Origin: Tridacna crocea
Lineage: Eukaryota; Mollusca; Bivalvia; Cardiida; Cardiidae
Direction of reading: 5' to 3'
Assembly: GCA_943736015.1 (NCBI GenBank)
Contig: OX031069.1
Location: 21,457,235-21,521,234 of the forward strand
DNA length: 64,000 bases
The position numbers and the translations under genes are program-made. Shown in pieces: positions 8,441 to 63,522 of the stretch (position 1 is its first letter; the number at the start of each line of letters is the position of its first letter). A model generated the notes under the pieces. That model worked only from the letters and a program-made list of their open reading frames with translations. It made no database searches and had not been told where the DNA came from.

Positions 8441-8668
8441 CTAACTCTTTACCAAACAAAAAAAATTTAGACTGGCCCAAATTGAAAGCATTTCCAGACA
8501 ACAAAAGTAATGCGACTCAAAAACTGGAATTTGCTCTGAGGAAGGCGGAAACATTGTGGGAAAAGGAGAAAATGCTGGTGACCGGCATTTTCTCCTTTTT
8601 CCTCTATGCTTTCAAATGGCTTCTTTCTAAGGGTCGTGAAAACCCGTGATTGTTTGGTAAAGAATTAA
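8441..8668 (-). mobile_element. TTAA mini-element, family A
   Basis: The left end is CTAA + CTCTTTACCAAAC and the right end TTTGGTAAAGAA + TTAA. The central hairpin is built of GGGAAAAGGAGAAAATGCTGG and its complement, slightly mismatched. It is 228 bp with no coding capacity. Confidence 0.85.
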
Positions 8669-8791
8669 AGATATTGTCTTGCAACAGCTTTCCTTTTTAA
8701 GTCTACTTATGTCTAGAGACTGAAAATATATTTGCCAAGAGTTAACACTCAAAGTGCCTTTGCCTTTTACTACTTTAATTGTTTATATGAC

Positions 8792-9495
8792 AAGTACAAT
8801 GTATACAAATCAAAATCGAACTGCGCATAACTTGAAGTCATCTCTTTGATCTACATTGTCCGCTTGGCAGGGTACAATGTATACAAATCAAAATCGAACT
8901 GCGCATAACTTGAAGTCATCTCTTTGATCTACATTGTCCGCTTGGCAGGGTACAATGTATACAAATCAAAATCGAACTGCGCATAACTTAAAGTCATCTC
9001 TTTGATCTACATTGTCCGCTTGGCAGGGTACATTATCTATTTGATCTACGTTGTACGCTTGGTAGGGTACAATGTATACAAAACAAAATCGAACTGCGCA
9101 TAACTTGAAGTCATCTCTTTGATCTACATTGTCCGCTTGGCAGGGTACAATGTATACAAATCAAAATCGAACTGCGCATAACTTGAAGTCATCTCTTTGA
9201 TCTACATTGTCCGCTTGGCAGGGTACAACATCTATTTGATCTACATTGTACGCTTGGTAGGGTACAATGTATACAAATCAAAATCGAACTGCGCATAACT
9301 TGAAGTCATCTCTTTGATCTACATTGTCCGCTTGGCAGGGTACAATGAATACAAATCAAAATCGAACTGCGCATAACTTGAAGTCATCTCTTTGATCTAC
9401 ATTGTCCGCTTGGCAGGGTACAATGTATACAAATCAAAATCGAACTGAGCATAACTTGAAGACATCTCTTTGATCTACACTGTCCGCTTGGCAGA
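8792..9495 (+). repeat. Tandem repeat, 78-bp unit with 39-bp half units
   Basis: Eight nearly identical 78-bp units (TACAATGTATACAAATC...CCGCTTGGCAGGG) are interrupted by two 39-bp short units at about 9030 and 9226 that read TTGATCTACRTTGTACGC. The unit end (GATCTACATTGTCCGC) resembles one arm of the GATCAGACTGCAC hairpin family. Confidence 0.9.
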
Positions 9496-9619
9496 GACAT
9501 TCTGGCCAACACAGCTTCCTTGAATCGACAGTTATTTGTGTAATTTTCCGGAATGAAACCTGTTTTTTCACTTGCCGTTAAATAACTTTTTTATAACACA
9601 ATACTTGATTTAAACAAGT

Positions 9620-9803
9620 AGAGTAAGAGCTCATGGGTAAAACAGATGAAAATGCTGGTAACCCGTATTTTCTCCTTTACACGTAATATTTTTTCCGTTT
9701 TCAGAGGCAAATTGTATCATACGAGTGGCACTTAATTTGCTGTCGACGACTACTTTGAATTTGGAAGAGCCTAAAATTCTGTCGCTGGGCAATGACCTAA
9801 CAT
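9620..9803 (+). mobile_element. Degenerate TTAA mini-element, family A
   Basis: ATGCTGGTAACCCGTATTTTC, then a GTCGACGACTACTTTGAATT segment and a GGGCAATGACCTAA end are recognisable. The left half is largely lost. Confidence 0.5.
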
Positions 9804-9826
9804 TTTACGACACAGTCCCTATAGTT

Positions 9827-10055
9827 TCAAGCCATTACCACACAATCCCTACTTTTGACGCCCCTAAGAAAGAAGCCTTTTGAAAACACTATGGGAAAAG
9901 GAGAAAATGCTGGTAACCAGCATTTTCTCCTTTTCCCACAGTGTTTTCTACCCTTCCCAGAACAAATTTCAATTTTTCAGTCACCTTTATTTTGTCGTCT
10001 GCAAATGCTTACAATTCGGACCAGTCTAAAATTTTCTCGTCTTGTAAAGAGTTAA
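9827..10055 (+). mobile_element. TTAA mini-element, family A
   Basis: The order is TCAA + GCCATTACCACACAATCCC, the GAGAAAGAAGCCTTTTG segment, a near-perfect central hairpin, GTCGTCTGCAAATGCTTAC, and finally GTAAAGAG + TTAA. Confidence 0.88.
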
Positions 10056-10159
10056 TGACCTTATACATGTACTTGTGTATAACTAAAATTAGATTTTCAA
10101 TTTGATAGTCAAAAACAATGACTGCTATTTCAAAGTTTTGTTTTTAGAAACAGGATCTT

Positions 10160-10236
10160 ATGACCGCGCAGTGTAGATTCAAGATCAGGCTGCACGTTCT
10201 GTGCAGTCTGATCTTGATCTACACTGTCCGCAACTG
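10160..10236. repeat. Hairpin of family F (GATCAGACTGCAC type)
   Basis: AGATTCAAGATCAGGCTGCA pairs with TGCAGTCTGATCTTGATCT around the centre CGTTCTG, followed by ACACTGTCCGC. Only the hairpin core of the longer element seen at 17923-18138 is present. Confidence 0.65.
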
Positions 10237-10255
10237 GTCAGTAAGTCGCGCTTAG

Positions 10256-10470
10256 CAGCCTAAGAGCTCATGACCTTGAGAAGAAACACCGTCGTGGGGG
10301 TGTGCGGGGGAAAGGAAAAGATGCTGGTAAACAATATTGTCTCTTTTCTTCATTATGTTTTCTATCATTCCAATGTCTAATTTTAGTTTTTTGTTCACAG
10401 TTAATATATCGTCTGCGGATGCTTAGAATTCGGACCAATGTAATATTTTGCCGTTTGGTAGAAAGTCAAA
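10256..10470 (+). mobile_element. Degenerate TTAA mini-element, family A
   Basis: A weakened hairpin (AAGATGCTGGTAAACAATATT) is followed by CGTCTGCGGATGCTTAGAATT and GCCGTTTGGTAGAAAG. The order matches family A but divergence is high. Confidence 0.55.
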
Positions 10471-10727
10471 AGCGTTAATTCTAGATGAAAACAGATGATG
10501 TTGTCATTTTTTTCCTGTTCCAGGAAGGGACATCAATGAGAGCGAGACGAAATTCCAGGTCGAAGTAATGTTTCATGTACATACAAACATCAGATATTGC
10601 TATAATCGATTGACTGAACTGATAATATAAGAGAACTTGTTCATTGCAGGACAATTTTTTGCATGTCAGAACGTTGCTGTTGAAAGACTTCACTAGAATT
10701 AAAACTCTACTAGATTTAAAAGCAGAA

Positions 10728-11651
10728 ATGTCATCTAACAATACCACCGCCGACTGTGGAAAGTTTCCGGAAAATCCCGAATTATGCCGAATCATTGTTC
10801 GCTGCAAGTACGCAGCGTGTGTACTTTCTATAGTTGGATCGTTGGTCGTTTTGTCTTTGACGTTTGCTCTGAAGAATTATAGAGCTTTCAAATACAGACT
10901 GGTTGCGTATCTCTCTATAGCATCATTAATCTTGCCAGTTGCCTTTCTTCCATATGATTTCAACACGGAACAAGGTGGGCCATGTATAGCTCAGGGTGTG
11001 GTAATAGAATTTTGCATCATTGCCACTGCATACTGGATCAATGTCCTTGCAATCAATCTCTACGCGTCCACCTTCCTTTCACGAAGCCTCAAAAGACTTG
11101 AAATTCCACTGATCATTATGGGCATCGTCATACCATGTGTGTTTTTCGCAATCCCTTTGATAGCTGATACCCATATTTATGGACCGGCTGGTCCATGGTG
11201 CTGGATGGTAAACACTGAATGGCAATGGCGTTTCGGTTCCTGGTATTTCTGGAGGTTTCTCACTTTACTGGTCATGATCCTAATTGTTGGTAGAGTTGTA
11301 TGTCACCTGCATGTCTACTCGAGAAAGAAGCATTCCGATGAAACCAGGGATGATATCCGAACACAAAGTATGTATCCAGTTGTATTCTTTCTGGTAAACC
11401 TGTTTCCAACCATCAACAGAATCCAGAATGCCGTTAGTCCCGATCACCCGGTGTTTGCTCTGTATTTGCTGCAGGCCCTTTCAGATCCTTTATTTGGAGC
11501 AGTCATTGCTATCGTTTTTGTACTAAATGGCGAAACAAGGCAGTCTCTAAAGAAAGTTTTTGGCGTTAAACCGGGAGAAATTCGAGATTCAACATTATCG
11601 GATATTGAACAAAGAAACCAGGTTGAAGAAACAGCCATAGACGAACGGTGA
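10728..11651 (+). CDS. Seven-transmembrane receptor, cAMP-receptor-like (Dicty_CAR / class E type)
   Basis: An uninterrupted 307-residue frame encodes a membrane receptor. Hydrophobic segments lie at roughly residues 27-47, 57-75, 86-110, 126-145, 172-194, 215-233 and 243-266. The short extracellular N-terminus carries a glycosylation-type NNTT at 4-7. Cys86 at the start of helix 3 and Cys158 within GPWCW in the second outer loop are the expected disulfide pair; the GPWCW block is typical of slime-mould cAMP-receptor-like proteins. The cytoplasmic tail (~268-307) is short and charged. I chose the ATG at 10728: the frame stays open 28 codons upstream but only to a non-ATG, and a splice-acceptor-like TTCATTGCAG ends at 10649, suggesting a 5' untranslated exon upstream. 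The ligand cannot be told from sequence. Metazoan members of this family are G-protein-coupled-receptor-like orphans. Confidence 0.85.
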   Translation: MSSNNTTADCGKFPENPELCRIIVRCKYAACVLSIVGSLVVLSLTFALKNYRAFKYRLVAYLSIASLILPVAFLPYDFNTEQGGPCIAQGVVIEFCIIATAYWINVLAINLYASTFLSRSLKRLEIPLIIMGIVIPCVFFAIPLIADTHIYGPAGPWCWMVNTEWQWRFGSWYFWRFLTLLVMILIVGRVVCHLHVYSRKKHSDETRDDIRTQSMYPVVFFLVNLFPTINRIQNAVSPDHPVFALYLLQALSDPLFGAVIAIVFVLNGETRQSLKKVFGVKPGEIRDSTLSDIEQRNQVEETAIDER

Positions 11652-12927: not shown

Positions 12928-13000
12928 TTAAGGTAGTAAACCCGTAATACTTCTAGTGCAGCATGACATAAAATTTCTTGATAGTTGAAAAATACGGATG
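12928..13000 (+). mobile_element. Left end of a family G mini-element
   Basis: TTAAGGTAGTAAACCCGTAATACTTC and AAATTTCTTGATAGTTGA match the left end of the complete copy at 16096. The right part is missing where LINE sequence begins. Confidence 0.55.
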
Positions 13001-13014
13001 TATTTTACATCTGT

Positions 13015-13690: not shown

Positions 13691-13704
13691 TATCGTCAAA
13701 AGTG

Positions 13705-15376: not shown

Positions 15377-15434
15377 GCTTGTTTTGTCAATCCTATGAGG
15401 TAATACTTTCTTCGTTTCAATGGATGGTGTTTTT

Positions 15435-16707: not shown

Positions 16708-16719
16708 AACCCTTCAGTT

Positions 16720-17080: not shown

Positions 17081-17089
17081 TGTTATATT

Positions 17090-60000: not shown

Positions 60001-60829
60001 ATTGATTAACTCTACCAAACAACAAAATTTTGGACTGGTCAAAACTGAAAGCACATCCACATGAAAGAATAAAAGTAAACCAAAAATCAAAATTTGTTTC
60101 CAGTAGGGTAGAAAACATAGTGGGAGAAGGAGAAAATGCTGGTTACCAGCATTTTCTCCTTTTCCCACAATGTTTTCAAAAGGCTTCTATTTTAGGGCCG
60201 TAAAAACCAGGGATTGTTTGGTAAAGAGTTAACCATCAACATCTATCATTTAGTATACCAACAACCTTTTGTCAGTGACTTATCTCATTCTTCAAGGAGT
60301 CCAATATGGGAAACATTGTGGCAAGTAAAGAACTGATTAGTAAAGAGTGTTTTCTCCCTCTGTGATAGTGTTTGTACCAGTACATTACATTCAGGTATTT
60401 TACCAGTATTCATGTTATTAACCTCAATCCATGATGATTATTTCTAATTTACAACTGTTCCAAATTTCTTGCACATATGTTTCAGGAGATATCGAGTAAA
60501 ACTTTTACCAAACAGATGTGGATTCAACAATAATGAGGTTAATAAAAACACCATCTCTATCTTTGAATAGAGATGAAAAATAAACGACTTGATTGATTAT
60601 GCTTTTTTCCCAGATTTACTGGTTGGTGCATACAGATCTGACTCAGCTGTGATGTTTCGTACTCGCCCAATTGTCGGTATTAAAGCCTCGATCGATATGA
60701 ATCCAAACCCAATACCTTTGAACCCAGAGAGCTTAGATTGTTCCCAAGATGGAATGCTGTGTTTTACTATTTATGTGGAATTTGATCTTAAAGGACAAAG
60801 GGAGGGTGTGACAGATATTCAGAATACAA
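20827..60829 (+). CDS. Integrin alpha subunit, no I domain; 14 coding exons, 3' end beyond window
   Basis: Cell-surface adhesion receptor subunit that pairs with an integrin beta chain. Exons: 20827-21026, 22143-22276, 27820-27950, 31759-31883, 34832-34931, 39193-39241, 42116-42187, 43766-43863, 50604-50663, 54550-54744, 56395-56524, 57708-57821, 59906-59986, 60614-60829. Every junction is GT-AG and all phases match, giving 568 codons plus one base without a stop. Residues 1-24 form a signal peptide (hydrophobic ILFYVLCFVVYVF), and the mature chain starts near YNVD. The rest is the beta-propeller: LLIGTPN, VCAPGWKN, FG-GAP blades, and calcium loops DVTGDGVEE (354-362), DLNADDFND (424-432) and DIDNNGYPD (489-497). 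Then LRGFGWSL, RSDSAVMFRTRP and the thigh-domain start. Known families carry an I domain after blade 2; none is present here. RSDSAV.RTRP and CAP.WKN resemble alpha-4/alpha-9 and invertebrate alphas, but the orthology is inferred. The alpha-helical stalk, membrane segment and GFFKR tail are not in the window. Confidence 0.93.
21345..21573 (+). mobile_element. TTAA mini-element, family D
   Basis: TTAA + CCCTTTACCCCATAAGGCAT, the ATGACACCTTTTCATAGTG segment, the hairpin GGCAAAAGGTGAAATTGCTC with apex GTCAC, and AGTATCTAAGGAGTAAAGGG + ATAA. It shares its right end with the next copy. Confidence 0.85.
21570..21765 (-). mobile_element. TTAA mini-element, family A, right end lost
   Basis: ATAA + CTCTTTGCCAAATAAC, AAAGCAATTGAAGGCAACAA and the hairpin with GCTGGTTACCAGC. 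It stops after TTTTCAAAAGACTTTTGTC, where family E sequence begins. Confidence 0.8.
21770..22104 (+). repeat. Family E hairpin repeat, truncated copy
   Basis: TAGAGGATGTTTGTG and a hairpin (GGACACCATTGGTAATATTT versus AATATTAGCAATGGTGTTC), then TTTTAACCCTTTCTGGGAGG and ATTACGTCAAG. It stops at ACCATCTGGTCGTGAGG, about 40 bp before the exon 2 acceptor. Fuller copies are at 32183, 41456 and 58196. Confidence 0.75.
22143..22276 (+). CDS. Integrin alpha exon 2
   Basis: Phase 2 in, phase 1 out. Encodes LLIGTPNRTVNNINGYGG, then a cysteine-bearing loop (ARCDSS, IVCNHI, GGIC) typical of the first propeller blades. Acceptor GTGTCATTAG, donor GTGAGT. Confidence 0.88.
22350..22578 (+). mobile_element. 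TTAA mini-element, family A
   Basis: TTAA + CCCATTACCACACAATCCC to GTCGTTTGGTAATGAC + TTAA, with a near-perfect hairpin. It starts about 75 bp after exon 2. Confidence 0.9.
22610..22801 (+). mobile_element. Degenerate mini-element, family A-like
   Basis: AAGAAGACTTTTGAAATAGC, a decayed hairpin with TTTTAACCAGCATTTTC, TATGCAAATGCTATCAAG, and an end in TTAA shared with the next element. Confidence 0.6.
22798..23025 (+). mobile_element. TTAA mini-element, family B
   Basis: TTAA + CCCTTTACTCCATAGATAC, a hairpin with apex GCTCATAACGAGC, and GGTAAAGGG + TTAA. This is the best complete example of family B. Confidence 0.88.
23765..24365 (+). mobile_element. tRNA-like SINE split by a TIR element
   Basis: ATGATGCTCAGTGGTAAAG (to 23807) continues at 24253 as CGGTAAAGTGTAGGACTCG, then GGTACTAGTCTCGAGTCC. 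Together these give box A-like and box B-like pieces of a tRNA-type head. The intervening 23808-24252 is the insertion. Confidence 0.5.
23808..24252. mobile_element. TIR element with GTTTTGGCCA subterminal repeats
   Basis: The left side has GGACGTTTTGGCCAGCTAAA and GGATGTTTTGGCCACATG. The right side has the inverted forms TGGCCAAAACTTCCTAC, TGGCCAAAACGTTCTGG and TGGCCAAAACATCCGTCC. Flanking TGGTAAAG / CGGTAAAG (23800-23807, 24253-24260) look like an 8-bp target duplication, as in hAT-type elements. Confidence 0.65.
24368..24640 (+). mobile_element. tRNA-derived SINE
   Basis: A head with TGGTAGCTCAGTCAGTAGC (box A-like) and GTTGCTGGTTCAATGTC (box B-like) is followed by a body ending in TGTTGAAAATGGCGTTAAAC and CATACAAGTAATCAACAATC. 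The tail is shared with the SINEs at 1455, 6915 and 33105. Confidence 0.7.
25235..25445 (+). mobile_element. tRNA-like SINE
   Basis: GTCTGTCGGTGGTCGTGAGA (box A-like) and CCTGAGTTCGAAACCCTGG (box B-like) sit at tRNA spacing. The following body ends near TCAATGTAGAATAAAG. Confidence 0.55.
25450..26065. other. No gene recognised; AT-rich intron DNA
   Basis: Poly-A and poly-T runs at 25567 and 25939. No repeat family could be assigned. Confidence 0.4.
26070..26150 (-). mobile_element. Half mini-element remnant
   Basis: ATGGCATTTTCTCCCACAGTG to GTAAGGTAAATGGTTTA is the decayed second half of a hairpin mini-element. Confidence 0.4.
26181..26401 (-). mobile_element. TTAA mini-element, family A
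   Basis: TTAA + CTCTTTACCAAACGAC, AAAGCACTTGCAGATAGC, a long hairpin with apex GCTGGTAACCAGC, and TTTGGTAAAGGG + TTAA. Confidence 0.9.
26503..26671. repeat. Fold-back palindrome
   Basis: Arms of about 70 bp (AAATAATCGTCTTC...GTGAGTTATGAGGCACAATA against its complement ending AAGAAGATTATTT) around a GCAATAGCCC centre. It is not part of the TTAA mini-element families by sequence. Confidence 0.8.
27218..27421 (-). mobile_element. Degenerate mini-element, family A
   Basis: TCTTTTTACCAGAGGCC, CTGAAAATATTTGGAGATGA, a hairpin with CTCAGGTTACCAGCATTAC, and an end at TTTTAA shared with the next copy. Confidence 0.6.
27418..27647 (+). mobile_element. TTAA mini-element, family A
   Basis: TTAA + TTCTTTACCACATAATCCC, GAGAAAGAAGCCTTTTG, a perfect-looking hairpin, GTCGTCTGCAAATGCTTTC, and GGTAAAGACG + TTAA. 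Confidence 0.9.
27820..27950 (+). CDS. Integrin alpha exon 3
   Basis: Phase 1 in, phase 0 out. Encodes KLKGDSKLNRSDCEQ, DQRLGATIAINHNF and STLPMVT. The DQRLG block corresponds to the NQWLG/DQMLG strand of propeller blade 2. Acceptor TTTTTCAG, donor GTAAGA. Confidence 0.85.
28060..28460 (+). mobile_element. SINE-like repeat interrupted by a mini-element
   Basis: AATTCTCTTTGGCTCAGTGG and TTATGGTATTGGTCTT (to 28093) continue after the insertion as AACCTCGAAAAAGGAGG, then TTCATGGGTTCGAGTTCC (box B-like) and TGTATTTCAGCTATGCAT. The uninterrupted relative is at 28990-29150. Confidence 0.65.
28094..28314 (-). mobile_element. TTAA mini-element, family A, inside a SINE-like repeat
   Basis: The left end is slightly shortened (TTTACCACATGGGAAAG). 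A full hairpin with GCTGGTTACCAGC is followed by TATGGTAAAGAG + TTAA. It splits the surrounding repeat exactly where its relative at 29020 has a single TTAA. Confidence 0.88.
28549..28951. mobile_element. Short TIR element with 8-9-bp target duplication (hAT-like)
   Basis: The left end CCATCTTCGCAAGCCAAGG and the inverted right end CATCTTCGCGAGCCAAGG match. AACTTTCC flanks both sides (28541-28548, 28952-28959). The same flanking repeat at 27985-28040 has AACTTTTC once and no element, giving an empty site. Confidence 0.75.
28990..29150 (+). mobile_element. SINE-like repeat, uninterrupted copy
   Basis: AATTCTCTTTGGCTCAGTGG, TATTGGTCTTTTAAACC, TTTATGGGTTTGAGTTCAGC (box B-like) and TGTATTTCAGCTATGCAT run on without interruption. 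Confidence 0.65.
29191..29419 (+). mobile_element. TTAA mini-element, family A
   Basis: TTAA + CCCATTACCACAAAGTCCC to GTCGTTTGGTAATGAG + TTAA, with a hairpin intact but for single mismatches. Confidence 0.9.
29770..31422 (+). mobile_element. Family A mini-element split by a Helentron-like insertion
   Basis: CACAATGTTTTCTACCCTTC and CAAATTTCAAATTTT (to about 29812) resume at 31344 with GTCACTTTTATTTTGTC, AATTTGGACCATTC, and GGTAATGAG + TTAA. The first half of the mini-element is missing. Confidence 0.8.
29813..31342 (+). mobile_element. Helentron-like element with ~155-bp internal tandem units
   Basis: Starts ATACGCCCGAAGGGTCG, and near its 3' end has the inverted partner GGGCGTATATGCGCC, then hairpin GCTTTGCGAAGC and CTCTTG|TT. 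Inside are (GTCC)n, a TTAGGG-rich stretch (29948-30010), and about six ~155-bp units (CCAGGCCATAACTTCCAAAC, ACACTGATAGAACACATTATG, GAGTTATTGCCCTTTG). Insertion inside a known mini-element fixes both ends. Confidence 0.8.
31419..31654 (-). mobile_element. TTAA mini-element, family D
   Basis: TTAA + CCGTTTACTCCATAGATAC, the hairpin GCTCATGATGAGC with GGTGAAATT arms, ATGCCTTATGGGG, and TTAAGGG + TTAA. It lies between two family A right ends. Confidence 0.85.
31655..31729 (+). mobile_element. Right end of a family A mini-element
   Basis: TCTTCAAATGCTTTCGATTC, CCTAAAATTTTGTCATCTG, and ATAACAAG + TTAA. Only the last ~75 bp is present. Confidence 0.65.
31759..31883 (+). CDS. Integrin alpha exon 4
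   Basis: Phase 0 in, phase 2 out. Encodes VCAPGWKNVYLETESK, YMVGMCLKL and LLCPRKDF. The VCAP.WKN strand and the following cysteines are classic for integrin alpha blade 2-3. Acceptor TTTCTCAG, donor GTAAGT. Confidence 0.92.
32183..32642 (+). repeat. Family E hairpin repeat, long copy
   Basis: TAGAGGATATTTG, a hairpin GTGAACACTATTGGTAATA / TATTACAATGGTGTTCAC, CTTTTAACCCTTTCTGG, AATATTACGGCAAG, ACCTAGGCAACAAGAACATG, and ATCCTACTGGAAAGCATGAA. The open frame across it is an artefact of the repeat. Confidence 0.75.
33056..33572 (-). mobile_element. TTAA mini-element, family A, split by a SINE
   Basis: TTAA + CCCTTTACTATGTGGC, TAGACCTATCCCTATTGAAG, then the SINE, then GGCATTTGCTGTCGACAA, a hairpin with GCCGGTTACCAGC, and TGTGGTACAGAG + TTAA. 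Confidence 0.88.
33105..33377 (-). mobile_element. tRNA-derived SINE with 13-bp target duplication
   Basis: On the minus strand: head GGGTGGCTCAGTGGTGAGCG (box A-like), GGTTGTGAGTTCAATACCC (box B-like), a body with GAAGTGGCGTTAAACC, and a short CCAA repeat at its 3' end. CCCTATTGAAGGC flanks both sides (33092-33104, 33378-33390). Confidence 0.9.
33850..34071 (-). mobile_element. TTAA mini-element, family A
   Basis: TTAA + CTCTTTACAAAATGAC to TGTGGTAAAGAG + TTAA. One hairpin arm is shortened (GGGAAAATGCTGATTACC). Confidence 0.88.
34280..34506 (-). mobile_element. TTAA mini-element, family A
   Basis: A left end decayed to CTTGTTCCCAAACGAC, a full hairpin with GCTGGGAACCAGC, and TGTGGTAATGGG + ATAA. 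Confidence 0.82.
34832..34931 (+). CDS. Integrin alpha exon 5
   Basis: Phase 2 in, phase 0 out. Encodes YCWPFWTFEGKAFDKGQPYY and AFAQGGLSAAFTT. The QGGLSAAFT strand matches the CQ.G.S..FT position before blade 3. Acceptor TTTCAG, donor GTAACT. Confidence 0.88.
35232..35509. mobile_element. Chimeric TTAA mini-element (C left half, A right half)
   Basis: TTAA + CACTTTCCAAAATGTTAG, AGATTTTGCAGAAGACAATT (family C style), a hairpin GCTGGTAACCAGC with a damaged right arm, then TCTGCAAATGCTCTCAATTT and GGTAATGGG + TTAC (family A style). Confidence 0.78.
36281..36740. repeat. Large inverted repeat, ~224-bp arms, ~10-nt spacer
   Basis: The left arm starts TCAGCACGGCGGGGAATCAC and the right arm ends GATTCCCTGCCGTGTTCAGG. 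The inner edges AAAGTTATTGACGAGCAAAC and GTTTGCTTGTCAATAACTT face each other across ACCCAGGGT. The arms differ at only a few positions by eye. Both strands therefore show the same 70-residue open frame, which is not a gene. Confidence 0.92.
37195..37301 (+). mobile_element. Right end of a family A mini-element
   Basis: TTAATTTGTGGTGTGCAAATG, GAGCGTGGAGAGATCC, and TTAGTTGG + TTAA shared with the following copy. Confidence 0.5.
37298..37527 (-). mobile_element. TTAA mini-element, family A variant
   Basis: TTAA + CCCTTTACCACATGACAAG, a left arm with TCTGATGACAGTTGCCATG, a hairpin TTTTTGGGAAAAGGAG with GCTGGTAACCAGC, and GGTAAAGGG + TTAA, shared with the next copy. Confidence 0.87.
37524..37751 (-). 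mobile_element. TTAA mini-element, family A
   Basis: TTAA + CTCGTTATCAAATGAC, AAAGCGTTTGCAGACGAC, a hairpin with GCTGGTTACCAGC, and GGTAAAGGG + TTAA. Confidence 0.9.
38025..38253 (+). mobile_element. TTAA mini-element, family D
   Basis: TTAA + CCCTTTACCCCATAAGCC, GGATGAAGCCATTTTTTATG, a hairpin with GCTCATGACGAGC, and ATCTATGGAGTATAGGG + TTAA, shared with the next copy. Confidence 0.88.
38250..38470 (+). mobile_element. TTAA mini-element, family A
   Basis: The left end is shortened to TTAA + CCACACAATCCCTAC, so the CCCATTA is lost. The hairpin has GCTGGTAACCAGC. The right end is GTCAACTGGTAATGAG + TTAA. Confidence 0.86.
38467..38607. repeat. Fold-back palindrome starting at a mini-element TTAA
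   Basis: TTAAGGAATGAAACAAATG...CATGGAGGTATTGAAAGAAT faces CATACCTCCATGAAAAC...CTGAATTCCTTA. Arms are about 55 bp with mismatches. The left arm begins at the terminal TTAA of the preceding family A copy. Confidence 0.75.
39193..39241 (+). CDS. Integrin alpha exon 6
   Basis: A 49-nt exon, phase 0 in, phase 1 out. Encodes DGISEVTGGPGVKEWRG, equivalent to the GAPGSYYWKG/GGPGSFYWQG strand of blade 3. Acceptor ATTTCAG, donor GTACAG. Confidence 0.85.
39296..39523 (+). mobile_element. TTAA mini-element, family A
   Basis: TTAA + TCCTTTCCCAAACAATCCC (C-like left edge), GGTTTTTACGACCCCGAGAC, a perfect-looking hairpin, GTCTGCAAGTGCTTTGAATT, and GGTAAAGAG + TTAA. It starts 55 bp after exon 6. Confidence 0.9.
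39928..40157 (+). mobile_element. TTAA mini-element, family A
   Basis: TTAA + CTCTATACCACAGAATCCC, GAGAAAGAAGCCTTTTG, a perfect-looking hairpin, TCTGCAAATGCTTTTAATG, and GGTAAACAG + TTAA. Confidence 0.9.
40230..40292. repeat. Short hairpin repeat (CTCAGATCAGCCTGC type)
   Basis: TCATCTCAGATCAGCCTGCAC pairs with GCGCAGGTTAATCTGAGAC. Related stretches lie near 40585, 44962 and 45563. This is a recurrent small hairpin repeat. Confidence 0.6.
40300..40526. mobile_element. TTAA mini-element, family C
   Basis: TTAA + CCCTTTCCGGAATGAC, AAGAGTTTGCAGACGACAAT, a hairpin with GAAATTGCTCCTTAGAAGC, and TTTGGGAAAGAG + TTGA. Confidence 0.86.
40698..41376 (+). mobile_element. Family A mini-element split by an LTR-type insertion
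   Basis: TTGTTACCACATAATTCTG, GAAAAAGAAGCCTTTTC, and the hairpin to ACAATGTTTTCTA (40820). It resumes at 41278 with CCTTCACAAAACAAATTTC, TCTGCAAGTGCTTTCAATTT and an end near TTCAAGAGTTAG. Confidence 0.85.
40822..41280 (+). mobile_element. Small non-autonomous LTR-type element (TRIM-like), fossil
   Basis: Two direct terminal repeats of about 150-165 bp begin TGTAACGTGCARCGACCTGG (at 40822 and 41112) and share AGGCAGGTTTCAAGTGC. Between them lies only about 140 bp of non-coding DNA, and there is no gag or pol. The size and layout fit a terminal-repeat retrotransposon in miniature. It is nested in a family A mini-element and is therefore younger than it. Confidence 0.65.
41456..41910 (+). repeat. 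Family E hairpin repeat, long copy
   Basis: TATAGAGGATATTTG, a hairpin GGACACCATTGGTAATATTT / AATATTACCAATGGTGTTC, CTTTTAACCCTTTCTGGG, ACCTAGGCAACAAGAACATG, and ATCCTACCGGAAAGCATG. Confidence 0.78.
42116..42187 (+). CDS. Integrin alpha exon 7
   Basis: Phase 1 in and out. Encodes GYKLTQLSEEKLIDWDQEST followed by LYY, the linker between blades 3 and 4 leading into the YLGYS-type strand. Acceptor GGTTTCAG, donor GTAAGT. Confidence 0.85.
42415..42643 (+). mobile_element. TTAA mini-element, family A
   Basis: TTAA + CCCATTACCACACAATCCC, GAGAAAAGAGCCTTTAGAG, a hairpin with GTGGTAACCAGC, and TATGGTAATGGG + TTAA. Confidence 0.9.
42784..43003 (-). mobile_element. TTAA mini-element, family A
   Basis: TTATCTCTTTACCAGAC, CACAGTATTTGCAGATGAC, a hairpin with GCTGGTTACCAGC, and TGTGGTAAGGGG + TTAA. 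Its second half is duplicated at 43208-43353. Confidence 0.82.
43181..43341 (+). pseudogene. Truncated copy of integrin exon 8 fused to mini-element sequence
   Basis: After the acceptor ATTCTTTGTAG the copy encodes YSIATAEFHD, as the real exon 8 does, then passes into mini-element sequence (CNCDAVVDSLENIVEK...). The frame stays open 53 codons to GTG|GTAAGG at 43341/43342, a good 5' splice-site match. As a cassette it enters in phase 1 and leaves in phase 0, the same phases as exon 8. It lacks the VVAGCPNF strand of the real exon. It is either a dead exon copy or a possible aberrant or alternative exon. Confidence 0.7.
43208..43353 (-). mobile_element. Duplicated second half of a family A mini-element
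   Basis: TGACTGTAATTGTGATGC to TGTGGTAAGGGG + TTAA, almost identical to the second half of the copy at 42784-43003. Confidence 0.85.
43458..43686. mobile_element. TTAA mini-element, family C
   Basis: TTAA + CCCTTTCCCAAACGAC, AAGAGTTTGCAGATGACAG, a hairpin with GCTCGTTACGAGC, and TTCGGGAAAGAG + TTAA. The paralogous segment at 43100 carries a single TTAA and no element. Confidence 0.92.
43766..43863 (+). CDS. Integrin alpha exon 8
   Basis: Phase 1 in, phase 0 out. Encodes YSIATAEFHDEGNYVVAGCP and NFHAKTQGHTGK, the blade-4 strand equivalent to GYSV...VAGAP. Acceptor TTCTTTGTAG, donor GTAATG. A TG-rich tract starts 13 nt after the donor. Confidence 0.92.
43877..43943 (+). repeat. (TG)n microsatellite at the exon 8 donor
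   Basis: Imperfect TGTGTGTC/TGTGTG repetition to 43943. On the minus strand it gives a spurious Thr/His open frame. Confidence 0.9.
43984..44205 (+). mobile_element. TTAA mini-element, family A
   Basis: TTAA + CCCTCTAGCAAACAATCCC, CCTGAGATAGAAGTCTTTTG, a hairpin with GCTGGTGACTAGC, and TTTGGTAAAGAG + TTCA. Confidence 0.85.
44206..44391 (+). mobile_element. Degenerate mini-element, family A
   Basis: AGAAGGCCTTTGGAAACACTG, a collapsed hairpin, TTTTCTGCAAATGCTCAG, and GTCGAATGGTAGATGG + TTAA, shared with the next copy. Confidence 0.6.
44388..44616 (+). mobile_element. TTAA mini-element, family A
   Basis: TTAA + CCCATTACCACACAATCCC to GTCGTTTGGTAATGAG + TTAA. The hairpin has a few mismatches (GGGAAGAGG, TTCTGGTAACCAG). 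Confidence 0.9.
44690..44901 (-). mobile_element. Degenerate mini-element, family A-like
   Basis: AATTTTGTAGACAGCTAATT, a hairpin reduced to TCTTACCAGCATTTTTTATTG, and GTCTGGTAAAGAGTTG. Confidence 0.45.
45065..45560. repeat. Inverted-repeat element with TGGAAACTTGTTC arms
   Basis: ACTTGGAAACTTGTTCAAGGC (45441) pairs with ATGAACAAGTTTCCAAGTCC (45505), within arms from TTGTACGGTCGGGTGGC to GCCACGTGATTGTGCAAC (45412-45545). The upstream part (CTGCAAAGAAATATCTCATG) matches, in inverse orientation, the copy at 55110-55760. Confidence 0.6.
45853..50551 (+). mobile_element. Helentron-like element with ~26 tandem 167-bp units
   Basis: Begins TTTTTAGCTCACCTGAGCAC with a small hairpin CGAAGTGCTCATGGTGAGC, a single-copy leader (CCGTCGTCCACAATTTC, GCCAATCTTGATGAAACTTG), then about 26 units of 167 bp. 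Each unit has GAAACTAGAAGGCGTAGAGC, AGCATCTCCTAGTGGACCTC, GATGCCCCTGGGGTC and GGGGGTCACAAGTTTGAAAC. One unit, near 46890, is shortened. It ends AGCGATTTAGGACCATCG, TGGTCCTCTTG|TT. It fills 4.7 kb of integrin intron 8 and stops 52 nt before exon 9. Confidence 0.88.
50604..50663 (+). CDS. Integrin alpha exon 9
   Basis: A 60-nt exon, phase 0 both sides. Encodes VEILKGTQKREVIEFGIWKS, the outer strands that close propeller blade 4. Acceptor GTGTTTTCAG, donor GTAAGT. An alternative reading as the end of the neighbouring repeat is excluded by its fit to the phases of both flanking exons. Confidence 0.85.
50728..50778. repeat. Family F hairpin, reduced
   Basis: TAGATCAAGATCACACTGCAG faces GTAGTCTGATCTTGATAC around AACAT. 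Confidence 0.55.
50800..51073. mobile_element. Terminal-inverted-repeat element, ~60-bp TIRs
   Basis: The left end GGATACCCCAGGGTCTCCC, CTATTTGCTACGCTACATCG, ACCCCTGGGACA is mirrored at the right by TGTCCCAGGGGTCGATGCAG, CGTAGCAAATAGGG, AGACCCCGAGGTATCC. The ~140-bp interior is non-coding. Confidence 0.8.
51064..51150. repeat. Half copy of the 16.5-kb fold-back palindrome
   Basis: ACCGACCATTCTTAAGAACA, TTCTAAGTTTTATTTTCCAG and GTAACACAACTTTGATTAG follow the order of one arm at 16520-16620. The second arm is missing. Confidence 0.5.
51172..51394 (+). mobile_element. TTAA mini-element, family A, diverged
   Basis: TTAA + CCCAATAGCACACCATCCC, a hairpin with GCTGGTAAACAGC and a damaged right arm, GTGTGCAAGTGCTTTCATTT, and GATAAAGAG + TTAA. 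Confidence 0.82.
51395..51502 (+). mobile_element. Mini-element left part, cut by a Helentron-like insertion
   Basis: CCCGAGGAAGAAAGCTTTTG, a weak hairpin with GCTGTCTACTAGC, and CACAATGTTTTTGACC, then the neighbouring element starts. No right half was found on the far side. Confidence 0.55.
51504..52478 (+). mobile_element. Helentron-like element, six ~145-bp units
   Basis: Begins TTTTTAGCTCACCTGAGCAC and goes directly into six units whose order and private variants match the last six of the array at 1-1422 (ATGCCACATTTTCAGTCC, GAGGACACATTTTCAGTC, GAGGCTACATTTTCTGCC). It ends CAGGTGAGCGATTTCAGGG, CCATCATGGCCCTCTTG|T. Confidence 0.85.
52700..52758. repeat. Perfect hairpin, 27-bp arms, 5-nt loop
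   Basis: GTGCACAGGATAACTTGCAT with GTAGAAC is followed by loop TAGTT and then the exact reverse complement ending ATCCTGTGCAC. It belongs to none of the repeat families named here. Confidence 0.9.
52925..53075 (+). mobile_element. Degenerate mini-element, right two-thirds
   Basis: GAAAACATTGTAGAAAAGGAG, GCTGTAACCAGCATT, CAGCATGTTGTCTGCAAACG, and AATATGGACAAGT + TTAA. A second copy of its right part lies at 53340-53430. Confidence 0.6.
53072..53299 (-). mobile_element. TTAA mini-element, family A
   Basis: TTAA + CTCATTACCAAATGA, AAAGCATTTGCAGACAAC, a hairpin with GCTGGTTACCAGC, and TGTGGTAAAGGG + TTAA. Confidence 0.88.
53302..53339 (+). mobile_element. 3' end fragment of a Helentron-like element
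   Basis: GCCAGTGGAGCGATACAGGG, CAATAATGGCCCTCTTG|TT. Only about 38 bp with the terminal hairpin. Confidence 0.6.
53500..53860 (+). repeat. Three tandem ~117-bp units
   Basis: Each unit has CCGTCCAAAACTTTTYGYTG, TTGGTAAATTTTCTGCATGTC, CCAACCTACCTTATGATTCC and ATTAGTTGTTGGAGATAAT. The third unit is shorter at its start. Confidence 0.85.
53873..54100 (+). mobile_element. TTAA mini-element, family A
   Basis: ATAA + CTCTTTACCACACAATCCC, GAGAAAGCAGCCTTTTG, a hairpin with GCTGGTCACCAGA, GTCGTCTGCAAATGCTTTC, and GGTAAACAG + TTAA. Confidence 0.88.
54154..54382 (-). mobile_element. TTAA mini-element, family A
   Basis: TTAA + CCCTTTACCAAATGAC, AAAGCACTTGCAGATGAC, a perfect-looking hairpin with GCTGGTTACCAGC, and TTTGGTAAAGGG + TTAA. 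Confidence 0.92.
54550..54744 (+). CDS. Integrin alpha exon 10
   Basis: A 195-nt exon, phase 0 both sides. Encodes blade 5: CEKIETLSFEANGIMKDQVG, TKFGAAVHTVDVTGDG, EEIFVGAPYYSGKMVDEGRV, FVYTMKLQ. It carries the first calcium loop, DVTGDGVEE, and the FGAAV...VGAP FG-GAP core. Donor GTTAGT. Confidence 0.95.
55110..55760. repeat. Inverted-repeat element related to 45065-45560, with a mini-element inside
   Basis: GCTTTGGAAACTTGTTCACGG pairs with AACTGTTTCCAAGTCCCC. The far part (ATTATCCAATCAGATCATGAG, AAATTTCTTCGCAGTATAAT) is the inverse of 45080-45110. The family A copy at 55303-55531 interrupts it. Confidence 0.6.
55303..55531 (+). mobile_element. TTAA mini-element, family A
   Basis: TTAA + CCCGTTACCACACAATCCC, GAGAAAGAAGCCTTTTG, a near-perfect hairpin, GTCGTCTGCAAATGCTTTC, and GTGGTAAAGAG + TTAA. 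Confidence 0.92.
55918..56116 (+). mobile_element. Degenerate mini-element, family A
   Basis: TTTTACCCCATTAGGACC, GATGGAAAGGAGAAAATGC, AGCCAGCATTTTTTCTGG, TTCCAAATGCTTTAAATTT, and GTGGTGAAGAGTTTG. Confidence 0.55.
56128..56354 (-). mobile_element. TTAA mini-element, family A, next to exon 11
   Basis: TTAG + ACTCTTTACCAAACAAC, AAAGCACTTGCAGACGAC, a hairpin with GCTGGTTACCAGC, and TTGGTAAAGGG + TTAT. It ends 40 nt before the exon 11 acceptor, so it may include branch-point territory. Confidence 0.88.
56395..56524 (+). CDS. Integrin alpha exon 11
   Basis: Phase 0 in, phase 1 out. Encodes TACGPIGILSGGARHPMYKD, KVEFARFGTSISSAGDLNAD, DFN. This is blade 6 with the ARFG start and the second calcium loop, DLNADDFND, completed in exon 12. 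Acceptor CTTTCAG, donor GTATAA. Confidence 0.94.
56700..56903 (+). mobile_element. Degenerate mini-element, family A
   Basis: CTGATAAAAAAGGCCTCTAAAA, a hairpin with GCTAGTATCAGCATTTGC, TGTGCAAATGCATCATG, and CACCTGACAAACAGTTAG. Confidence 0.55.
57110..57219 (+). mobile_element. Right part of a family A mini-element
   Basis: TTTTCCACCTTCTAAAGTC, TTTTGTCGTCTCCAAATGC, AATTTGGACAAGTCTG, and GTTTGGTAAAGAGTAA. Confidence 0.6.
57708..57821 (+). CDS. Integrin alpha exon 12
   Basis: Phase 1 in and out. Encodes DVAIGAPYEDEGKGAVYIYH, GQGPCNCIMEDKFSQRIAG, the VAIGAP and GAVYIYHG core of blade 6 and the SQRI strand into blade 7. Acceptor GCTTTCAG, donor GTAACC. Confidence 0.95.
57951..58130 (+). mobile_element. 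Family A mini-element lacking its central hairpin
   Basis: Left part AGTACCACACAATCCCTAC, GAGAAAGAAGCCTTTAG, AACATTGTGGGAAA joins directly to ATTTTCTACCTTTCATAAAA. The right part continues to GTTGTTTGGTAATGAG + TTAA. About 45 bp around the apex are missing. Confidence 0.88.
58196..58640 (+). repeat. Family E hairpin repeat, diverged copy
   Basis: GATCGAAATTTATTTCATGG, GTGAACAACATTGGTAATA, CTGATGGTGTTCACTC, CTTTTAACCTTTTCTCGG, ACCTAGGCAACAAGAACACG. The open frame across it is a repeat artefact. Confidence 0.7.
59104..59202. repeat. (AG)n and (GGGC)n low-complexity tracts
   Basis: AGAGAGAG-rich 59104-59142, and GCGGGCGGGCAA-type repeats at 59166-59202 at the start of the neighbouring element. 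Confidence 0.8.
59148..59575 (+). mobile_element. Helentron-like element, third family
   Basis: Starts near TATTATGGGATCACCCATGG. It holds two and a half units (CATATCTCCAAAACTATAC, GGGTTATGAAATTTCAT, GAGTTATTGCCCTTTGTCG) and ends GCGACAGTTTGCCGCTCTTG|TT. The unit text GAGTTATTGCCCTTTG is shared with the element at 29813. Confidence 0.65.
59621..59856 (-). mobile_element. TTAA mini-element, A/C intermediate
   Basis: TTAA + CCCATTACCAGATGAC, AAAGAAGTTGCAGACGACAT, a hairpin with apex GCTTGATACAAGC, and GTGGTAATGAG + TTAC. It ends 49 nt before exon 13. Confidence 0.85.
59906..59986 (+). CDS. Integrin alpha exon 13
   Basis: Phase 1 in and out. Encodes ETIHADLRGFGWSLYGNEDI, DNNGYP, blade 7 with LRGFGWSL and the third calcium loop DIDNNGYPD, completed in exon 14. 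Acceptor TAACCAG, donor GTAGGT. Confidence 0.95.
60006..60232 (-). mobile_element. TTAA mini-element, family A
   Basis: TTAA + CTCTACCAAACAAC, a hairpin with GCTGGTTACCAGC, and TTTGGTAAAGAG + TTAA. It begins 20 nt after exon 13. Confidence 0.9.
60614..60829 (+). CDS. Integrin alpha exon 14 (last in window)
   Basis: Phase 1 in and out. Encodes DLLVGAYRSDSAVMFRTRPI, VGIKASIDMNPNPIPLNPES, LDCSQDGMLCFTIYVEFDLK, GQREGVTDIQNT: the end of blade 7 and the first beta strands and cysteine pair of the thigh domain. Acceptor TTTTCCCAG, donor GTAAGT. Confidence 0.95.
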
Positions 60830-60964
60830 GTAAGTAACAGTTTACAAAATAATCCCAAATTTTAAAGACACTGTGGAAAACAGCCTTTTTGAACACATTG
60901 CAGGAAAAGAGGATGTTTTCTGTGATCAGCATTTTCTCACTTTCCTAATATGTTTTAAACCCTT

Positions 60965-61193
60965 TTAACCCTTTCCCAACCAATCCCTGGTTTTTTGGGC
61001 TCTGACAAAGATGCCTTTTGAAAACATTGTGAAAAAAGGAGAAAATGCTGGTAACCAGCATTTTCTCCTTTGCCCACAATGTTTTCTACCCTATCATATA
61101 GAAAAATCATCTTTTTAGCAACTGTTGATTTGTCATCTGCAAAATGCTTTGAATTTGGTCTGGTCCAAAATTTTTCATTTTGGAAAGGGTTAA
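60965..61193 (+). mobile_element. TTAA mini-element, A body with C-type ends
   Basis: TTAA + CCCTTTCCCAACCAATCCC, a hairpin with GCTGGTAACCAGC, TCTGCAAAATGCTTTGAATT, and TTGGAAAGGG + TTAA. A decayed partial copy lies just upstream (60840-60964). Confidence 0.88.
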
Positions 61194-61533
61194 GCCCATC
61201 CTTTGTGATGCTGTTCTTGTCAGGAGACTAAATAGTTGCCATACCTAGCAATAGTGTTTACAGACAACAAAGATAGTGTCCTGGTATAAATCCTGATGTC
61301 CCAAAAATGAGATCACACAATTGTGATATTAAACATGTATAAAATAAGAAAATTGGCAATAGGTATATTACACCGAAAACAAGGGAGATTATGTGATGAA
61401 ATGCCTATCTCAAATGTATGTAAGATAAGAGTACTTATAATAGTTACATGTATGTTATATGAAAAAATTTAAATTTAGTAATTTGAAAAGATTGAATTTT
61501 CCATCAATTACCACATTGTTTATTTGGAATTTT

Positions 61534-61620
61534 ACTCTTTACAATACAACACACAATGTTAGACATATCAAAATTGAAGGCATTTGCAATCGACAAATAA
61601 ATGTGACTCGAAAGTAGCGA
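61534..61620 (-). mobile_element. Left end of a family A mini-element
   Basis: TTTTACTCTTTACAATAC, AATTGAAGGCATTTGCAATC, GACAAATAAATGTGACTCG, then other repeat sequence begins. Confidence 0.6.
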
Positions 61621-61624
61621 TTTC

Positions 61625-61910
61625 CCAGTCAGCAAAATTTATGGGACCGATATGGGCCCCATGTGGGATTTTATATGGGTCCAAAATGGGCTGCCCATGT
61701 GGGATTGAGCTGGTTTTTGCAACAGGAATCCATGCAGGACCCACATGGGCAAACATATATGGGTCATACATGGGAACTATATGGGTCCAATAAGGGTAAT
61801 TTGTAAATACCCACACTGGACCCATATGGTTCCCAGATCTCTATTATAAGGGCACTATATGGGATTCCTGTAGGTCCAATGTTACTACTTGGGTCCCATT
61901 TTAGTTCTGC
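61625..61910. repeat. ATGGGTCC / GGACCCATAT motif cluster
   Basis: At least a dozen degenerate GGGACC(C)ATATGGG-type motifs in both orientations over 280 bp (ATATGGGCCCCATGTGGG, TATATGGGTCCAAAATGGG, GGACCCATATGGTTCC). Because the motif is near-palindromic, mirror-image open frames appear on both strands, neither a gene. Confidence 0.75.
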
Positions 61911-62389
61911 TTTCAATAAAATTGGCTGCATACGGGAAGCAAGTCGGTCCAGTTTTGGTGTACTGTGTGAGGTTGACCTGGTTATCCATATGGTTTGGCA
62001 GAAACATTCTTGAGCTTCACAAATAGAAAGTACACATAGCCAAGCAATCAGAGGTGCTTGCCTTCAGCAATTCATACATGAGTGAGGTAATATTCCAAAG
62101 TCCTTTGTCCACGAAGTAAGTTGGTTGACTTATAAGCACAGAAGACTAGAATGCATATCAGCTTGCGGTAAAATAATCAAATATTTAGGTCAAACTACCA
62201 TAAACTACAGTAAAATAAGAAATAAATGTATTTTCAAGCCATCTCTTTATTTTGTTTTAGTATATTGCTTTCATTCAAAATTACAATTGCAAAAGTGTAG
62301 AAAAAGTGTGGTAGTCAACATTCACAGATATATAAAACAAAACACTTGTGTTACTGCTTAGAAATAACATAATTATGGTATGATATATC

Positions 62390-62585
62390 TTTAACCAGCA
62401 AGGAGTCTTATCTAATAAATGCAAAAAAGAAAAATACAAAATGTTAGATTTGTCAAAAATCAAAGCATCTGCAGGTGACAGCAATTTAGTTTAACTCAAA
62501 AGATGTAATTTTCATTCATAGAAAATTTTGGTTATCAGCATTGTATTTGTTTCCCAAAGTGTATTCAGAAGCCAACTTCCTATGG
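62390..62585 (-). mobile_element. Degenerate mini-element, family A
   Basis: AAATGTTAGATTTGTCAAAA, AAAGCATCTGCAGGTGACAG, TTTTGGTTATCAGCATTG, and a lost right end. Confidence 0.5.
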
Positions 62586-62589
62586 GTCA

Positions 62590-62809
62590 TTATTCCTTAG
62601 ACTGCTAAGCTCATCTCAAGTACCTTTTGCAGACAATGTAGATCAAGATCAAACTGCAGAAAATGTGCACTCTGATCTTGTATGCACACTGTCCATAAAA
62701 TGATATTTCCCCTAAAAGATCACTGAAATTAACAACAAAATTTGGAACTTACTGTTGGCTTGAAAGTTTCATTTCAGTTACTTGATGTATTTAGCATGTT
62801 AAGGGTTAA
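62590..62809 (+). mobile_element. TTAA-bounded hairpin MITE, family F
   Basis: TTATTCCTTAGACTGCTAAG, the hairpin GATCAAGATCAAACTGCAG / TGCACTCTGATCTTG, ACACTGTCCATAAA, CTTGAAAGTTTCATTTCAG, and TTAAGGG + TTAA. Same plan as 17923-18138. Confidence 0.7.
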
Positions 62810-62897
62810 AACATGTGACTTTACAATGTAAGGGTAAATGTTTATATTCACTGTTGTTTACACAGATAAGGAATCAGGAGCTACATGTTAGTAAAAA

Positions 62898-63047
62898 TCA
62901 ATCAAGGTCCTCATTTGCAGGATTTTTAGGCAACACTGACCTAAACATCTCCCTTTTCTGCCCTCGATCTCTGTGTTGAGCACTAGTCCACATATTGTAG
63001 GTCTTAGCTTGCAGATTGTCGTGTTTAAGGCTTCTTACACAGTCATC
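62898..63047 (-). CDS. Possible terminal exon of an unidentified minus-strand gene
   Basis: On the minus strand an acceptor-like TTAATTTACAG precedes an open 49-codon frame DDCVRSLKHDNLQAKTYNMW, TSAQHRDRGQKREMFRSVLP, KNPANEDLD ending at a stop. The composition is protein-like and no repeat family covers it, but I recognise no domain and cannot pair it confidently with an upstream exon. It could be chance. Confidence 0.25.
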   Translation of the reverse strand, partial: DDCVRSLKHDNLQAKTYNMWTSAQHRDRGQKREMFRSVLPKNPANEDLD

Positions 63048-63104
63048 CTGTAAATTAATAAAATTCAGTTTTAATGATGCCATTAACTGCTTTCAGCAAT
63101 ACTG

Positions 63105-63298
63105 CAGTGATATCTCAACAAAACTTTGGACTTAGCCATACTGAAAGCATTTCTAGACGACAAAATAAACGGGAATGAAATATTGGAATTTGTTTTCAGA
63201 AGGGTTGAACTCATTGTGCAAAAGAAGAAAATACTGGTTAGTAGTGTTTTCTTCTTTTCCAATAATTTTTTCAAAAGCTTTCTTTGTTGAGGTTGTAA
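63105..63298 (-). mobile_element. Degenerate mini-element, family A
   Basis: ATCTCAACAAAACTTTGGAC, AAAGCATTTCTAGACGAC, a weakened hairpin with ACTGGTTAGTAGTG, and a right end merging into the next copy. Confidence 0.6.
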
Positions 63299-63522
63299 AT
63301 TCTTTACCAGACAACAAATTTAAGAATGGTCCAATTTCAAAGCACTTGCAGACGACAAAATAAACCTAGCTCGAATATTGAAATTTGTTTCCAGCAGGGA
63401 AAAAAATTTGTGGAAAAAGGAGAAAATACTGGTTACCAGCATTTTCTCCTTTTCACACAATGTTTTCAAAAGGCCTCTATCTCAGGATCATAAAAACCAG
63501 GGATGGTTTTGTAAAGGGTTAA
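63297..63522 (-). mobile_element. TTAA mini-element, family A
   Basis: AAATTCTTTACCAGACAAC, AAAGCACTTGCAGACGAC, a hairpin with ACTGGTTACCAGC, and TTTTGTAAAGGG + TTAA. A further isolated GTGTGGTAAAGGG + TTAA end follows at 63534-63550. Confidence 0.85.

Follow-up and report, generated by a model that had tools for sequence, protein, structure and literature searches.

Miniature inverted-repeat transposable elements (MITEs) pose an old question: why do they outnumber their movers, and do their interiors do anything? A stretch of 64,000 nucleotides from the bivalve Tridacna crocea (assembly GCA_943736015.1, contig OX031069.1, positions 21,457,235 to 21,521,234 of the forward strand; hereafter the window, with positions counted from its first letter) raises it in a particular form: dozens of short TTAA-flanked elements recur there, each built around a long central palindrome. 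We find that these are mobile, non-coding, TTAA-inserting mini-elements, that is, MITEs. Our main point, absent from the initial annotation of the window, is that the two arms of the palindrome covary between subfamilies. In the small numbers that this single window provides, symmetry is kept along multiplying lineages and mostly lost in copies once inserted. This suggests that the hairpin helps the elements to spread.

The window (64% A+T) was scanned by iterated nhmmer. Of 13 copies with a hairpin that were picked by hand as seeds, 11 were used and two, with no recognised end, were not; the final model is 229 bp long. Because a palindrome matches both strands, the 144 raw matches are an inflated number; removing overlaps left 79 non-redundant loci, from 8442 (first start) to 63522 (last end), of which 41 are two-ended, meaning that the match runs from model position 9 or lower to 220 or higher. 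The reversed, uncomplemented window gave no match to the model. Sixty-nine loci are at least 100 bp long, 38 on the plus and 31 on the minus strand, which makes the initial estimate of about 60 copies fair for substantial copies and bears out a repeat dispersed through 55 kb in both orientations. The copies occupy 14,259 bases, or 25.9%, of 8441-63522, and the spacing among the 69 longer loci has a median of 488 bp and a mean of 807. As initially annotated, the elements hold no coding frame: the Pfam families above cutoff among 18 scanned open reading frames (ORFs) are confined to two ORFs that lie outside the copies.

A tree and consensus sequences resolve subfamilies A1, A2, A3, B1, B2 and C and several single copies, with A1-A3 copies differing from their own consensus by a median of 6.5-7.2%. 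The palindrome described initially, with arms of up to 33 bp and the family A apex GGTAACC, is perfect (33/33) in the consensus of A1, A2 and A3; the arms are symmetric at 32 of 33 positions in B2 and at 20 of 33 in B1, which consists of two decayed copies. By an ungapped count, symmetry reaches 25 or more of the 33 positions in 32 of the 41 two-ended copies. Of all parts of the element, the hairpin is conserved best in eight of 11 consensus or single-sequence comparisons. Between A2 and B2 it is identical at 57 of 68 positions and the ends at 14/20 and 15/20, the right interior is no better than shuffled (47.5% identity; shuffled mean 46.6%), and the left interior is weakly similar (60%; null mean 46%, null maximum 59% in 200 shuffles). 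Closer pairs, for example A2 and A1, retain similar interiors. In the most distant well-sampled subfamilies, then, the right interior is unalignable and the palindrome keeps both sequence and symmetry. The idea that the arms are internal copies of the ends was set aside and kept as a lead only: 9-12 of 16 positions are alike (14 comparisons, seven subfamilies; dinucleotide-shuffle p 0.007-0.43), and a gapped test gave p < 0.05 in one of 48 comparisons.

Covariation was counted in the 29 of 79 copies with a hairpin segment of exactly 67 nt, minus two shifted ones at 52945 and 60891 (19 and 16 symmetric positions), whose omission favours symmetry. Among the 27 hairpins left, all free of gaps and 25 of them distinct, 94.9% of cells pair. 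Cells changed on both sides numbered 28 against 7.0 in shuffles, and the covariation score was 0.147 against 0.066 (sd 0.007); neither value was reached in any of 500 shuffles, and slid partners scored 0.028-0.044. As relatedness can inflate such scores, we built a tree for 40 of the 79 copies from the sequence outside the hairpin and placed changes on it by parsimony for pairs 3-33 from the centre. Of 14 pair events on internal branches 6 were compensated within the same branch, and of 116 on terminal ones 5 (Fisher p = 1.7e-4); the corresponding counts in slid controls were 0 of 15-19 and 1-2 of 100-105. Within A1, A2, A3, B2 and C, 62 changes were one-sided and three compensated. It is this concentration of compensation on internal branches that shows symmetry to be kept in multiplying lineages and mostly not after insertion. 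Protection of the arms after insertion was also considered and rejected: private changes affect 2.25% of arm positions (32/1425) and 3.15% of interior positions (87/2763; p = 0.12), and the value without CpG-like sites (p = 0.015) is not relied on.

The boundaries of the elements were assessed on 100 modelled ends (46 left, 54 right). The TTAA columns are 87-100% conserved and the first base outside drops to 41-46%; TTAA is exact at 72 of the 100 ends, and of the 38 copies modelled on both sides, 24 have it exact at each. The motif inside TTAA is CYC[T/A]TTACC, with CYCW at 70 of 100 ends, so that both the TTAA boundaries and the CYCWTTACC termini of the initial annotation stand. Left ends mostly begin CCC (CCCTT or CCCAT), and CTC[T/A] is the usual start on the right; two sequences, the B2 consensus and the D copy, have CCCT on both sides. 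At the variable column 8, the left and right ends of the same copy match in 27 of 36 cases (18.6 expected), as would be expected where one enzyme has to read both ends; such matching is less clear at columns 11, 14, 15 and 17.

The two-ended copies are as follows; coordinates and strands, here and in the next list, are those of the non-redundant nhmmer model matches unless stated otherwise.
8442-8668, minus: two-ended copy, A2
9591-9799, plus: two-ended copy, diverged
9829-10055, plus: two-ended copy, A3
13963-14206, plus: two-ended copy, I; abuts the end of 13797-13966
18235-18460, plus: two-ended copy, B1, followed by the tandem expansion
19168-19383, plus: two-ended copy, A1; one arm partly deleted
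20568-20763, minus: two-ended copy, J; shorter hairpin
21345-21573, minus: two-ended copy, B2; TTAA common with 21571-21764
22350-22578, plus: two-ended copy, A1
22798-23025, plus: two-ended copy, B1
26181-26401, minus: two-ended copy, A2
27418-27645, plus: two-ended copy, A3
28092-28314, minus: two-ended copy, A3, within another repeat; empty paralogue 28952-29132
29191-29419, plus: two-ended copy, A1
31419-31730, plus: B2 copy (about 31419-31654) and an A-type right end to 31730; TTAA common with 31339-31422
33850-34071, minus: two-ended copy, A3
34279-34506, minus: two-ended copy, A1
35233-35508, plus: two-ended copy, diverged
37298-37527, minus: two-ended copy, H; TTAA common with 37524-37751
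37524-37751, minus: two-ended copy, A1
38025-38253, minus: two-ended copy, B2
38251-38470, plus: near two-ended copy, A1
39296-39523, plus: two-ended copy, A2
39928-40157, plus: two-ended copy, A-type, perfect hairpin
40300-40524, minus: two-ended copy, C
42415-42643, plus: two-ended copy, A1
42784-43003, minus: two-ended copy, F; flank 43004-43207 is the empty site
43458-43686, minus: two-ended copy, C; filled site of the duplicated locus
43984-44203, plus: two-ended copy, A2
44388-44616, plus: two-ended copy, A1; TTAA common with 44211-44391
51172-51394, plus: two-ended copy, diverged
53072-53299, minus: two-ended copy, A1
53876-54100, plus: two-ended copy, A3
54154-54382, minus: two-ended copy, A2, best score
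55303-55531, plus: two-ended copy, A3
56132-56353, minus: two-ended copy, A2
57953-58130, plus: two-ended copy, A1, hairpin mostly deleted
59621-59856, minus: two-ended copy, E
60007-60232, minus: two-ended copy, A2
60965-61193, plus: two-ended copy, D, ends CCCTTTCC
63299-63522, minus: two-ended copy, A2, nested in an outer copy (63116-63296 and 63523-63550)

The partial and interrupted copies are these.
10285-10469, plus: partial copy
12546-12615, minus: partial copy
12812-12914, minus: partial copy
13704-13769, plus: partial copy
13797-13966, minus: partial copy, abutted by 13963-14206
14286-14373, minus: partial copy, left end
15433-15571, minus: partial copy, right end
17022-17222, minus: partial copy, left end
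18136-18228, plus: partial copy
18466-18869, plus: three partial matches (18466-18610, 18616-18761, 18762-18869), tandemly expanded B1 right parts and a right end
21571-21764, minus: partial copy, right end
22622-22800, plus: partial copy
26043-26144, minus: partial copy
27216-27391, minus: partial copy, right end
29772-29815, plus: weak partial match
31339-31422, plus: partial copy, right end
33056-33572, minus: copy broken by the insert at 33108-33378; deduplicated match 33376-33572
37188-37300, plus: partial copy
40696-41376, plus: single copy split by a 0.45-kb insert; matches 40696-40820 and 41272-41376
43208-43353, minus: partial copy, duplicate of F
44211-44391, plus: partial copy, right end
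44693-44870, minus: partial copy
51392-51505, plus: partial copy
52911-53074, plus: partial copy
53336-53436, plus: partial copy
55061-55096, minus: weak partial match
55855-55940, plus: partial copy
55956-56114, plus: partial copy
56694-56903, plus: nearly complete copy
57105-57217, plus: partial copy, right end
57417-57490, minus: weak partial match
60835-60965, plus: partial copy, left half
61531-61626, minus: partial copy, right end
62436-62590, minus: partial copy
63116-63296, minus: partial copy, outer element of the nested pair

At 18321-18761 the right part of B1, about 150 bp, is tandemly expanded, and each unit ends in a TTAA end. Later sequences have also entered existing copies: one like a short interspersed nuclear element (SINE) in 33056-33572, at 33108-33378, with flanks that carry the repeated 12-mer CCCTATTGAAGG, and the 0.45-kb sequence in 40696-41376.

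Three filled/empty comparisons within the window, two at paralogous sites and one a nested insertion, record how the elements arrived. The flanks of 43458-43686 match the duplicated 43004-43207, with one TTAA in the empty and two in the filled state. The copy at 28092-28314 lies within another repeat, whose second copy at 28952-29132 reads CTTTTAAACC without a break; at the filled site TTAA flanks the insertion on one side, and the opposite side shows an apparent short deletion in the element end. The copy at 63299-63522 sits inside another copy, where the A3 consensus has an internal TTAA, and one duplicate now reads TAAA. These two paralogous pairs and the nested insertion, with a 229-bp model, 41 two-ended copies, inverted ends and no coding capacity, are the grounds on which we call the elements MITEs.

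The initial annotation called the density of copies extreme, and preferential insertion beside existing copies was one candidate explanation. Four neighbouring pairs with both facing ends modelled share exactly one TTAA. Random use of TTAA at the observed density predicts about 11-15 such pairs, a prediction in which each of the 69 copies of 100 bp or more counts as whole, whereas only pairs with recognisable ends are countable. There is no excess, and the density therefore requires no special targeting. Separately, at 13797-13966, 22622-22800, 37188-37300 and 38251-38470 a neighbour lies at a TTAA a few bases inside the other copy's expected end (overlaps of 11-12), possibly a secondary target in the end motif. 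The colony has an abrupt edge: the same model search found no copy in 1-8441, a stretch just as rich in TTAA (59 sites in its 8.4 kb; 378 in the remaining 55.6 kb). If copies were placed uniformly, such a copy-free interval would have a probability of 6e-5, a post hoc figure.

Several other features lie among or beside the copies. An uninterrupted 341-aa frame at 10626-11651 (plus) matches Pfam Dicty_CAR (1.1e-11), a cAMP-receptor-like seven-helix receptor, and 12972-13400 (plus) holds a reverse transcriptase fragment of a degenerate retroelement (RVT_1, 2.7e-12). With the general character of the sequence, these two features suggest animal DNA, and the tandem repeats and the SINE give the impression of a bivalve mollusc. 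A tandem array of a 167-bp unit at 46098-50499 holds no mini-element copy and makes up most of the longest gap between copies; a frame that starts inside it, at 50394-50690 (plus), has a sub-threshold Pfam ATX_III match over 14 residues (0.0035; 17.8 bits against a cutoff of 25), very probably by chance. Like 145-bp tandem repeats lie 50 kb apart at 1-1346 and 51520-52407. A near-perfect palindrome at 36276-36744 has 228-bp arms (94% complementary) around 13 nt, with no TTAA at its ends and no match to the mini-element model.

What moves the elements? Mobilisation in trans by a piggyBac-type transposase is most likely; the elements work like piggyBac MITEs, and membership of piggyBac itself is likely rather than proven. 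Sola3 also targets TTAA. A non-piggyBac TTAA transposase, whether Kolobok or Sola3, is an improbable mover. Kolobok duplicates TTAA and, among the molluscs analysed, is reported almost exclusively from bivalves (PMC10294476), and its ends are 5'-RR (PMC6004289, PMC9587614). Since none of the 100 ends here begins RR, Kolobok is excluded. The left ends fit piggyBac better: CCCTT and CCCAT both appear among the four end motifs given for animal piggyBac elements in a survey that includes molluscs (PMC10813416). Salmon piggyBac copies abut at shared TTAA (PMC2198921).

The best explanation, held with moderate confidence, is that a piggyBac-type transposase moves these TTAA MITEs and that mobilisation uses the palindrome as a third cis-acting site. 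The transposase, supplied from elsewhere, would bind the palindrome as a two-fold-symmetric site, most likely as a dimer; copies with a symmetric palindrome would spread, and symmetry would be kept along lineages and lost after insertion. A binding site is preferred over mere pairing because sequence as well as symmetry is kept, and the pattern of conservation and covariation points to selection at the movement step. There is precedent in piggyBac and piggyBat, whose cysteine-rich domains act as a pair to bind an internal palindromic repeat; the repeat's sequence differs between the two systems (PMC7351741, PMC11707139), and such sites can therefore change together with their enzyme. As these palindromes are short and lie close to the ends, the comparison is an analogy. 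A stronger version, in which the central palindrome would be as necessary for movement as both ends and the transposase assembly would dock on its two symmetric half-sites, is more tentative and less likely than not. In this version, a shift of the recognised sequence in a new lineage would change both half-sites together and leave the paired substitutions seen between subfamilies. If true, such a mini-transposon needs only its ends and a central docking site, with free filler between.

Several observations weigh against this explanation. On the side of the enzyme, the initial suggestion of a piggyBac-like mover stands as to TTAA and the CCCTT or CCCAT left ends; piggyBac ends begin CCYT (PMC10175614; PMC2872659), and strict CCYT occurs at only 25 of our 100 ends, right ends being mostly CTC[T/A]. 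Of what the initial annotation asked for, TTAA boundaries and filled and empty states are present within the window; no transposase, nor any transposase-bearing relative, was found by Pfam in the 18 scanned of the window's 44 ORFs of at least 90 aa. TTAA is its own reverse complement, and duplication of TTAA and of TA within TTAA are thus inseparable from sequence; by convention for such elements the duplication is given as TTAA. Left-right covariation is missing from other variable columns, for instance column 6 (14 of 37 against 14.5 expected). On the side of the palindrome, the cited piggyBac and piggyBat palindromes are 14-19 bp and near the ends, whereas ours is central and 66 bp long. 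An end is kept better than the hairpin in three of the 11 comparisons (B1-B2, A2-J and A2-H). Nine of the 41 two-ended copies have only 18-24 of 33 symmetric positions, perhaps through later decay or indels, and six of them (18-20) fall within the shuffle range of 15-20 (one shuffle per copy). The count of pairs changed on both sides, 7 of 33 against 4.5 in shuffles, was reached by 22 of 500 shuffles and is the weakest control; the six compensated internal events are spread over no more than four pair positions, and 27 pairs, not 31, entered the slid controls. Finally, the model by which every copy was detected includes the hairpin. When the end motif, itself trained on these copies, was scanned alone, it gave 95 matches scoring 12 bits or more (three simulated sequences give a random expectation of 4), 85 at modelled ends and ten elsewhere, of which we read about four as lying in hairpin arms and about four as ends of known copies beyond the reach of the model. 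As most matches are thus accounted for, the scan gave no sign within the window of a large hairpin-free family sharing these ends.

Other accounts of the symmetry have to be weighed against a site selected for movement. The palindrome may be functionless, with symmetry restored mechanically by template switching or arm conversion during replication or post-excision repair. A one-step symmetric change of both partners is the expected outcome of conversion, compensated terminal events (5/116) exceed those in the slid controls (1-2 of 100-105), and arms mismatch less within a copy (264/1804, 14.6%) than between different copies (18.2%; 58 copies). Conversion retains symmetry and not sequence, yet A2 and B2, whose right interiors no longer align, still agree in arm sequence (57/68); changes after insertion are nearly all uncompensated, and in-place conversion is therefore at most rare. 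We regard this account as unlikely, though it is the strongest of the alternatives. Somewhat less probable is that unrelated TTAA elements exchanged the hairpin as a module by recombination, its similarity reflecting recent sharing and not constraint. A2 and B2, with common ends and hairpin and an unalignable right interior, have the look this predicts; however, several positions carry paired substitutions between the A and B hairpins, so the hairpin was not freshly exchanged, and the A2-B2 left interior keeps its weak similarity (60%, above the null maximum).

Least probable of all is that the palindrome acts as RNA, read through as a hairpin with arms of about 33 bp that serves as a small-RNA source or editing substrate to the benefit of element or host. 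Arm covariation would fit this too, and whole-element RNA folding gives -52.6 to -99.9 kcal/mol for 12 subfamily sequences, values that have no shuffled baseline. Against it, sequence is kept as well as pairing, the predicted loop is only 3-5 nt, and Rfam has no family at gathering threshold in the window.

How do these elements compare with known systems? The exact hairpin and arm patterns have no match in IMG/VR or GTDB genomes, as expected for an animal element. A search of papers for the element letters gave one unrelated match, and one for the letters of the window's other repeats none. Among the matches listed from open-licence literature on TTAA or palindromic MITEs of bivalves and molluscs, judged mostly by title and the start of the abstract, the family is undescribed. 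REPINs, bacterial short palindromic mobile units moved by an unrelated enzyme, offer an analogy only: they too are short, palindromic and non-autonomous, and differ in host and enzyme. With the piggyBac superfamily the elements share the TTAA target, C-rich ends and copies abutting at one TTAA, and they differ in their mostly CTC[T/A] right ends and in a central palindrome far longer than piggyBac internal repeats. The Xenopus T2-MITE/Kolobok elements (PMC6004289) are alike in TTAA target, MITE architecture and several subfamilies, and unlike in their AG/RR ends.

The closest precedent, likened by description, is the coral CMITEs of Acropora (Wang et al. 2010, PMC2872659), TTAA-flanked MITE families with differing ends, one with CCCTTTCCC, that form tandem arrays and insert into one another; they are about 100 bp long against 229 here. 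One family's ends are common to a piggyBac-like transposon. A 75-base interior is kept between the CMITE families better than the ends are, and the authors suggest that it aids transposition; the words 'palindrom', 'hairpin' and 'secondary structure' do not occur in the part of the paper's text available to us. Here, too, an internal part is kept better than the ends, the hairpin surpassing both in all comparisons other than B1-B2, A2-J and A2-H. The clam elements would thus be a second system, after the coral CMITEs, for a role of the interior in transposition, and here the evidence is covariation.

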